In this document: one piece after another, positions 3,895-19,310 of the stretch
Layout: each line of letters begins with the position of its first letter
Position numbering within the stretch: the stretch's first letter is position 1
Program-made: the position numbers and the translations under genes
The notes under the pieces: model-generated
The model's input: only the letters and a program-made list of their open reading frames with translations
Told to the model about the DNA's origin: nothing
The model's database searches: none
NCBI GenBank assembly: GCA_021846985.1
Contig: JAJZVX010000002.1
Coordinates: 124,001-188,000, forward strand
Direction of reading: 5' to 3'
Source: Acidobacteriota bacterium
GTDB lineage: Bacteria > Acidobacteriota > Terriglobia > Terriglobales > Acidobacteriaceae
Length of the DNA stretch: 64,000 nt

Positions 3895-3935
3895 TATACC
3901 CCCATATGGTTTATACCATACCGGGGATGGGTATA
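3895..3935. promoter_or_regulatory. palindromic control region between porin and repressor
   Basis: The 62-bp gap between the porin and the FrmR/RcnR-like gene holds a perfect inverted repeat TATGGT-TTAT-ACCATA (3905-3920). It is framed by TATACCCCC (3895-3903) and GGGGATGGGTATA (3923-3935). Alternating A/T- and G/C-tracts with TATACCC/GGGTATA ends are the kind of sequence bound by RcnR/FrmR-type tetramers (established for that family). The minus strand also reads TATAAA within the palindrome, a possible -10 element for the porin. The operator role is inferred. Confidence 0.5.
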
Positions 3936-3952
3936 GGTGGGGAGAATCGTCC

Positions 3953-4225
3953 ATGCCTGACGCGGAACGGGAGAAACTTAAACAGATCCAGCGCCTGCGC
4001 AAACTTCGCGGACAACTCGACGCCTTCGAGCGCTCTCTGCTCGCCAGCGAGGACTGCGGCGGCCAACTTATGCTGCTGGCGGCCATCCGCGGCGGCGTCA
4101 ACGCCCTCATGGGCGAGGTGCTGGAAAACCACATTCGTTTTCACCTCTCCGACGGAGAGCGCGACCAAATTCCTCCCGCCCTTGCCGAGGATCTGATCGA
4201 TCTGGTGCGCGCCTATTTGAAATAG
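3953..4225 (+). CDS. FrmR/RcnR-type (CsoR family) transcriptional repressor
   Basis: All-helical CsoR/RcnR/FrmR-family repressor of 90 residues, the usual family length. Pro2, Cys35 and His60 are present, the residues that in FrmR react with formaldehyde or bind metal. His64 is also present (NHIRFH), which is a nickel/cobalt ligand in RcnR, whereas position 3 is Asp rather than the RcnR His. The C-terminus LIDLVRAYLK closely resembles FrmR. Such proteins are DNA-binding tetramers that release the operator when their ligand binds. The divergent partner is a porin rather than frmA or rcnA, so the ligand is uncertain: formaldehyde, or a transition metal such as Co, Ni or Zn. The ATG is fixed by the conserved Pro2. 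Confidence 0.85.
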   Translation: MPDAEREKLKQIQRLRKLRGQLDAFERSLLASEDCGGQLMLLAAIRGGVNALMGEVLENHIRFHLSDGERDQIPPALAEDLIDLVRAYLK

Positions 4226-4295
4226 GCCGCTGCCTCCATCTTAGTGCGCGCCCTTGACGGCGAGGATGAATTTTTGGTTGCGCGGCGTTCCCCGC

Positions 4296-4565
4296 CCTGC
4301 TCATGCGGCCAGGGCAAACGCATTTCAAATTGCGGGATGATTCTGTTTTGAAAGGGCACAACTTCAGTGGTGCCGCAGATAGATTCAGATGCATATCTCT
4401 GGCCTTCAGGCCCCGAGGGATGGGTTTTCATTCCCAAAACTTCCCCCCGAGGCTAAGGCCCATCCGTTTTTCGGGCCATCTTGCGGCACCACTGAAGTCG
4501 CGCCCTTTCAAAGTTGCTTCTGCCCGCGAATTGAAATTCAAATGCGTTTGTCCTGCTCATGCGGC
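4296..4565. repeat. long imperfect inverted repeat with flanking direct repeats
   Basis: A ~240-bp imperfect palindrome. The left arm (GGCAAACGCATTT..., then TTTTGAAAGGGCACAACTTC, AGTGGTGCCGCA, 4312-4378) is mirrored by the right arm (TGCGGCACCACT, GAAGTCGCGCCCTTTCAAA, ending AAATGCGTTTGTC, 4482-4552). The centre (4380-4480) holds smaller hairpins, such as GGCCC...GGGCC. The whole is bracketed by identical 14-bp direct repeats CCTGCTCATGCGGC at 4296-4309 and 4552-4565. It encodes no credible protein. A related half-element occurs at 19235-19310. It resembles a MITE or a REP/BIME-like dispersed element; the family is unidentified. Confidence 0.75.
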
Positions 4566-4640
4566 GGTTGCGCCCCCGCTCTTAGGTGTAATATGCATCT
4601 ATTGAGGAAGGTTTTTCCGCGGAGGCGCCCGGCGTTTCCG

Positions 4641-4657
4641 CCGGAAGCTGCTTCCGG
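4641..4657. promoter_or_regulatory. short perfect palindrome upstream of NifX-like gene
   Basis: CCGGAAG-CTG-CTTCCGG, a 7-bp perfect inverted repeat with a 3-base centre, lies about 30 bases before the ATG of the NifX-like gene. It could be an operator or a leader hairpin. A weak -10-like TAATAT sits at 4589-4594 with no convincing -35 at normal spacing. Confidence 0.3.
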
Positions 4658-4686
4658 AACTATTTTCAGGACTAGGAGTGAGAGGA

Positions 4687-5052
4687 ATGAAGATCGCAGT
4701 CGCAACCATGGATGGCGCCAGCGTGGCGCAGCATTTTGGCCAGAGCCGCGGCTTTCTCGTTTTCGATGTCGATGACACGGTGATCAAGGGCAGCGAGCTG
4801 CGCACCGCTTCTTCCACGCCGCATGACGCCGGCCTCTGCCATGGCCAGGCGCAGGGCGGGATGGCCGGCATGCTGGCCGGCTGCGAGGTGCTGCTGTGCG
4901 GCGGCATGGGCGCCGGCGCGGCCAACGCCATCCGCCAGCTCGGCCTGGATCCGTTCATCGTTCCCGGCGTGGCCTCTCCCCAGGAAGCCGTGACGCTCTT
5001 TCTCGAAGGCAAGGTCGATCCCGGCGCCGCCACCTGCAGTTGCCACCACTGA
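4687..5052 (+). CDS. NifX/NafY-like (dinitrogenase FeMo-cofactor biosynthesis fold) protein
   Basis: Small 121-residue protein of the Nitro_FeMo-Co (NifX/NifY/NifB C-terminal) fold. Landmarks are MKIAVATMDG at the start, the conserved HFG (VAQHFGQSRGFLVFDV), and a Gly-rich LLCGGMGAGAANAIRQLGLDP loop. Family members bind metal clusters, but most occur outside nitrogen fixation and have no known role. The C-terminus ends CSCHH, a plausible extra metal-binding tail. No nif genes are in the window. The frame is open to a GTG at 4678, but the ATG at 4687 has AGGAG at ideal spacing. A single-gene transcription unit is likely, since glnD is convergent downstream. Confidence 0.8.
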   Translation: MKIAVATMDGASVAQHFGQSRGFLVFDVDDTVIKGSELRTASSTPHDAGLCHGQAQGGMAGMLAGCEVLLCGGMGAGAANAIRQLGLDPFIVPGVASPQEAVTLFLEGKVDPGAATCSCHH

Positions 5053-19234: not shown

Positions 19235-19310
19235 GTTTTGAAAGGGCACGACTTGAGTCGTGCCGTCAGCGCCGCAAATTCGACGCGGCTTTAGCCCCGG
19301 AGGGATGGTT
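19235..19310 (+). repeat. second copy of dispersed palindromic repeat
   Basis: GTTTTGAAAGGGCACGACTT, then GAGTCGTGCCG, followed ~30 bp later by AGCCCCGGAGGGATGG. This matches the left arm and interior of the repeat at 4345-4422 (GTTTTGAAAGGGCACAACTT, AGTGGTGCCG, ..., GGCCCCGAGGGATGGG). It contains a perfect core palindrome GGCACGACT-T-GAGTCGTGCC. The opposite arm seen in the first copy is not obvious here, so this is a half-element. Confidence 0.65.

Follow-up and report, generated by a model that had tools for sequence, protein, structure and literature searches.

The 246-bp segment at positions 4310–4555 of the window (the whole 64,000-nucleotide stretch of acidobacterial DNA analysed here) is very probably a non-autonomous MITE which has ISAs1-type ends and carries a RAYT-type repeat as cargo, that is, a chimera of two transposition systems. 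Its limits were set from the inverted ends and the position of the flanking duplication. The features discussed below are the following.

3953–4225, plus strand: upstream neighbour, a CsoR-like, metal-sensitive transcriptional repressor (Pfam match, PF02583)
4300–4309, no strand: left copy of the 10-bp target-site duplication, CTCATGCGGC, identical to 4556–4565 (10-bp rule)
4310–4555, no strand: MITE with ISAs1-type ends (inverted ends; further copies in its own genome and in relatives)
4310–4325, plus strand: left terminal inverted repeat of 16 bp, present unchanged at either end of a 1218-bp ISAs1-type IS in genome G024
4346–4374, plus strand: RAYT-type palindromic repeat, left copy, M1 (2 mismatches to the genus motif, which brackets RAYT genes)
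4401–4420, plus strand: RAYT-type repeat, left copy, M2 (read from the sequence; M2 flanks RAYT genes)
4441–4461, minus strand: RAYT-type repeat, right copy, M2, degenerate (read from the sequence)
4485–4513, minus strand: RAYT-type repeat, right copy, M1 (3 mismatches)
4540–4555, minus strand: right terminal inverted repeat of 16 bp, with one mismatch
4556–4565, no strand: right copy of the 10-bp target-site duplication, CTCATGCGGC, identical to 4300–4309 (10-bp rule)
4678–5052, plus strand: gene downstream, of the dinitrogenase iron-molybdenum cofactor family (Pfam match, PF02579), its ATG likely being that at 4687 (by inspection)

The inverted ends read CAGGGCAAACGCATTT from position 4310 and, on the reverse strand, CAGGACAAACGCATTT, finishing at 4555. 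The inverted repeat reported in the preliminary description is real, and its direct flanks lie where they had been placed, the 14-bp CCTGCTCATGCGGC occurring exactly at 4296–4309 and 4552–4565. The arms had been called near-perfect, which overstates them: complementarity is 86% over the 22 nt of the outer arms (4310–4331/4534–4555) and 80% over the 56 nt of the inner ones (4322–4377/4482–4537), good but short of that. Folding of both strands, proposed there as a check, gave an RNA fold of the inverted-repeat region with z of −9.6 on each, far beyond chance (none of 200 shuffles was equally stable); the DNA fold of 4310–4551 also has a z of −9.6.

The element is best read, from its sequence, as an ISAs1-family MITE because a relative (G024, contig C132) possesses an IS of 1218 bp which carries perfect copies of the MITE's 16-bp left end on both sides, together with an ISAs1-type DDE transposase. 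The latter is an open frame of 374 amino acids with DDE_Tnp_1_assoc [1.3e-23, PF13808] and DDE_Tnp_1 [6e-22, PF01609] motifs. This IS stops at the contig edge and its own duplication is unreadable. A second IS of 1218 bp, in G019 (L070), specifies a transposase which is 81% identical over 367 residues and has one internal stop; it is bounded by a 10-bp duplication with 1 mismatch. The 16-bp end sequence (at most 1 mismatch) was found in 15 of 60 genomes, all of the same genus, and a reversed-pattern control gave none. The ends are therefore common to the MITE and to an element of autonomous type, which is the 1218-bp IS of G024 and is not in the MITE's own genome. PF13808 matches occur in six of the 37 genomes searched (G024 lies outside that set), including four in the own genome. 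Compared with the G024 protein these four are fragments or are spread over several frames, the nearest (C15, L056) sharing 73% identity over 195 residues, and no intact ISAs1 transposase was seen in this draft genome.

Many contigs of G019 and G031 begin or end near CAGGGCAAACGCATCT, several of those in G019 with PF13808 fragments, which suggests that multi-copy ISs break both assemblies. Elements of 241–246 bp which have the MITE's 16-bp ends around an unrelated interior were also encountered in other phyla, namely in two Akkermansia MAGs (L144 and L146) and a Flavobacteriales MAG (L145); L144 has a perfect 10-bp duplication and L146 none.

The direct flanks had been taken for a possible target-site duplication of 14 bp. 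A target duplication is present, and its length is 10 bp, not 14, because the right-hand CCTG (4552–4555) constitutes the last four bases of the element; the CCTG of the 14-mer is thus flank on the left side and the element's own end on the right. We also considered whether the target might measure 14 bp and include the extra CCTG, and take the repeat of these four bases as a coincidence: by inspection, a four-base extra repeat (CCCG) also stands at the copy on contig C41 of the own genome, and the copies on C9, C16, G016 and JAJYFB have no equivalent. ISAs1-family elements generate target duplications of 8–10 bp, a range which includes the 10 bp seen here.

For a survey of duplications every left end in the fetched loci was matched to the right end closest to it, with up to 3 mismatches allowed in an end and a spacing of 41–1399 bp; identical sequences entered once, and pairs were not selected for a duplication. 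This gave 31 pairs, MITEs and ISs pooled, from loci gathered via these ends and the transposases, that is, from a sample which is not random. In eighteen of the 31 the flanks agree over exactly 10 bp with no more than 2 mismatches; in two they do so over 8 bp, in two over 9 bp and in none over 11–13 bp. When flanks were paired across different elements as a control, one of 930 combinations had a 10-bp duplication. The 13 pairs without one include a 1176-bp IS of the own genome (L055) and the copy on G024:C32; neither L055 nor the G019 IS L074, also one of the 13, showed a duplication match at its flanks. Also among the 13 is a spurious pairing in L144, the proper pair of which is counted with the 18 (10/10). 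The 13 further include a perfect 8-bp duplication at L128 (G021:C101) and the 9-bp cases L129 (G018:C151), with 2 mismatches, and L145, within an A-run. The ends of L128 and L129 read CAGGGCAAACGCATCTTAATT and fit 8 or 9 bp rather than 10; elements of this type possibly represent a second subtype.

Four copies reside in the own genome (G000): those of the window (246 bp), C41 (247 bp, 92% identical to the window copy), C9 (116 bp) and C16 (63 bp), with 0, 1, 0 and 2 mismatches, respectively, between their 10-bp flanks. The C9 and C16 copies are internal deletions, with junctions at a shared AGTCG (by inspection) and at TTTCAA (by script). Full-length copies in relatives comprise G024:C32 (82%), G016 (77%; the JASHRF01 contig) and two in JAJYFB01, the G016 and both JAJYFB01 copies being flanked by 10-bp duplications with 1 mismatch each. 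The search for copies which the preliminary description had advised thus yielded three more in the same genome and full-length ones in relatives, and its idea of a MITE with a target-site duplication has held up, most copies having a 10-bp duplication of their own and a relative the matching IS of autonomous type.

The flanks of the G024:C32 copy mismatch at 9 positions. A run of N comes after this copy, then a second half copy, and only beyond the half copy does the sequence agree 10/10 with the left flank of the C32 copy. Because the right flank of the latter (GGGGAAGACCC) is similar to the sequence (GTGGGAAGACCC) left of another G024 copy, C141, which is cut by a contig end, the sequence suggests a misjoin of two insertions in a suspect assembly. 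The stretch concerned (L026/L059, G024:C32:7538–7980) reads as MITE, start of a RAYT-like frame (by eye), N run and second MITE half.

One might see in the segment an ISAs1 insertion sequence which degraded in place rather than a transposed miniature element, remnants of ISAs1 elements being present in this genome. This is hardly credible: several genomes carry, at further loci, units of 246–251 bp that share this interior, and the three mechanical ORFs overlapping the window element matched no Pfam family at E 0.1. The longest stop-free stretch within its 246 bp is 81 codons.

The protein encoded downstream had no match in the 36 other genomes searched, so that no empty-site locus could be obtained by this route. 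When the joined flanks were compared with 79 other genomes of the genus, no match crossed the joint among the matches listed (at most six candidates per genome); joined-flank DNA matched 64 of 80 genus genomes, the own one included, mainly via the CsoR-like gene. At the C41 locus the alignment with relatives starts near the insertion point and covers the side of the next gene; two matches to its joined flanks cross the joint, by only 7 and 4 bases, too few to be proof of an empty site. That gene looks, by eye, like isocitrate dehydrogenase (icd); the C41 copy lies upstream of it and adjoins a block conserved in relatives.

In the window the insertion follows the CsoR-like gene and finishes 131 bp before the likely ATG of the FeMo-co-type gene; a possible consequence is altered expression of its neighbours. 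No sigma-70-type promoter was found in 3900–4760, where 0.3 would be expected. Its place between two same-strand genes and its very stable fold on both strands would also suit a structured non-coding RNA, as the preliminary description had suggested, or a long hairpin serving as terminator, attenuator or mRNA stabiliser, and three terminator-like sites, one of them inside the element, were found in 3900–4760 against 1.0 expected. Double changes at 7 of 84 consensus pairs among six copies point the same way. However, the window holds no Rfam match at gathering score, the covariation term of the six-copy consensus fold is +0.65, which is no gain, and the copies occupy different loci, most of them flanked by a duplication of their own, so that we regard an RNA as improbable. 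In a separate count the double changes fell on one pair in each local M1 hairpin, on three long-range M1–M1 pairs and on none of the 24 outer-arm pairs, a pattern which, in only six sequences, would fit DNA ends and hairpins better than RNA.

The interior of the MITE (4346–4513) is composed of two inverted copies of a two-hairpin repeat, the first hairpin (M1) being TTTTGAAAGGGCACGRCTTYAGYCGTGCC and the second (M2) GGGCTTTAGCCCCTGAGGGA. The number of M1 matches expected by chance across the window is zero. At 19236–19305 the repeat also stands alone, its M1 differing from the motif at 1 position and having an M2-like part after it. With up to 2 mismatches allowed, 35 of the 36 genomes of this genus contain the 25-base M1 core, in as many as 157 places, as do two of 24 genomes outside it; the reversed control gave 0 of 60.

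One of the three Y1_Tnp (PF01797) matches in the own genome is located between inverted copies of the repeat. With this RAYT as query we compared the ten closest loci and 20 more distant ones, with no separate control set and with G035:C381 (60% identity) left out. In each of the ten closest fetched loci (the own and nine others, 72–100% identity) the gene is bracketed by M2. M1 likewise stands to its left and right, equally spaced from locus to locus, apart from one locus in which a contig start cuts the left M1. Among the 20 more distant loci (33–53% identity) 11 are without the motif; L201, L206 and L209 carry diverged M1 copies (4–6 mismatches) on both sides and L210 ones with 6–7 mismatches, L200 is flanked by M2 left and right, motifs occur on a single side in L202, L207 and L218, and in L211 only away from the gene. 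A first scan covered 33 RAYT loci (3 own, 30 chosen by Pfam score) and found the repeat at one, the own one, and at three of 33 control loci, among them two that hold copies of the MITE. An association with RAYTs in general was accordingly rejected, 1 of 33 being no better than 3 of 33. Because 11 of the 20 distant loci lack the motif and the Pfam-chosen scan found only the own locus, we assign the repeat, on the sequences compared, to one RAYT subfamily only. The MITE interior can accordingly be described as a RAYT unit without its gene, that is, as REPIN-like.

By inspection, the foot of the hairpin is GAAAGGGCACG in most of the genus copies listed, and GTCA/GTAAGGGCACG in G055. No GTAG (or CGTC) tag was present at the foot in the copies inspected, and the repeat was therefore not filed in the GTAG superfamily. 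G055, which belongs to another family of the same class, has 103 M1-core matches; those listed have a GTCAGGGCACG or GTAAGGGCACG foot, and one GCCA. On contig C41 of the own genome (L139:1501–1791) a repeat-flanked RAYT remnant lies inside a 1289-aa stop-free frame which runs into the apparent start of carB (by eye).

With an interior consisting of a RAYT-flanking repeat, which is also found outside such ends in many genomes of the genus, the element might be thought a REPIN only, the outer ends being the flank of the doublet and the RAYT having done the moving. We think this very improbable, since the shared unit extends to the CAGGGC ends, the 10-bp duplications abut those ends, and transposition of the IS200/RAYT type is not known to leave a target duplication. 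Moreover, the 63-bp copy is without the doublet and keeps the ends and 8 of 10 duplicated bases.

ISAs1-type ends enclose the doublet in other elements too. Our listing of these was drawn from near-duplication pairs and three others added by name. Elements in G018 (L028, L064) and G030 (L088, L113) have ends CAGGGCAATCGC or close variants, a 57-bp left arm and 10-bp duplications with 0–1 mismatch. One in G003 (L101) encloses a single repeat, and in G024:C72 (L061) a doublet lies between CAGGGC-type ends of looser match (by inspection). Since the same ends enclose other interiors elsewhere (G024, L092 and L120; Akkermansia MAG, L144), ISAs1 ends appear to carry various cargo, of which the doublet is one that recurs. 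The architectures comprise short arms (the window family), the 57-bp left arm (G018, G030) and others (G003, G024:C72). The G018 and G030 families have related left arms, a score as high being reached in none of 2000 shuffles; in the same test the shuffle frequencies were 0.2% for G018 against G003, 15% for G030 against G003, and 1.05% and 0.4% for the window family against G018 and G030, respectively. We would propose only tentatively, as a rather doubtful extension, that ISAs1 ends captured RAYT doublets repeatedly in this genus, that two transposases of unrelated kinds, DDE and HUH-tyrosine, serve the composites, and that the repeat thereby spreads without its own transposase.

Under the reading as an ISAs1-family MITE, a DDE transposase of that family, supplied in trans, would most likely recognise both CAGGGCAAACGCATTT ends and move the element. 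Cutting and insertion with a 10-bp stagger would produce the 10-bp target duplication, and the RAYT-repeat doublet, once it had presumably arrived between ISAs1 ends, would travel as a passenger. Since every ISAs1 transposase match seen in the own genome is either broken or a fragment, and internal deletions have shortened two of the four copies, the MITE is probably an old resident there, presumably inactive at present.

Among the papers listed in searches of the open-licence literature none dealt with ISAs1 MITEs in Acidobacteria and none with MITEs enclosing REPINs, which is weak evidence of absence. The ends, the duplication length and the likely transposase are given here for a MITE family in the little-studied Acidobacteriota, a genus-wide palindromic repeat is identified as that which flanks genes of one RAYT subfamily, and ISAs1 ends and a RAYT repeat are found joined in one element. 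Such chimeras would offer a testable route by which REPIN-like repeats might move without a transposase of their own.

Compared with known systems, the element shares its 16-bp ends (IS of G024) and its 10-bp duplication (IS of G019) with ISs of the ISAs1 family (DDE; PF13808 and PF01609), but lacks a transposase, and its interior has a different origin. MITEs of bacteria, among them RUP, NEMIS and ERIC, are described in PMC3733652, and IS630-related ones in PMC2817692. Like RUP, NEMIS and ERIC as characterised there (PMC3733652), it is short and non-coding, with inverted ends, duplications and several copies; unlike them it has ISAs1-type ends, and only four copies were found in its own genome. 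A REPIN, in the account excerpted from PMC3116915, is made up of two inverted palindromic repeats forming a hairpin, with matching repeats beside a RAYT gene. The interior of the window element shares this anatomy of an inverted palindromic pair and of matching repeats beside a RAYT gene, whereas its doublet is enclosed in the ends of a DDE transposon and has no GTAG tag at the hairpin foot. TIRtrons, in which a tyrosine transposase (TIRYT) gene lies between long inverted repeats and for which a passage of PMC3733652 names an acidobacterial group, resemble the interior also, as if it were a TIRtron without its gene, a likeness drawn from that description and not from the repeat sequence. The window element is thus an ordinary mobile element of hybrid build, in which known kinds, an ISAs1-family MITE and a RAYT-derived interior, are joined in an unusual manner.
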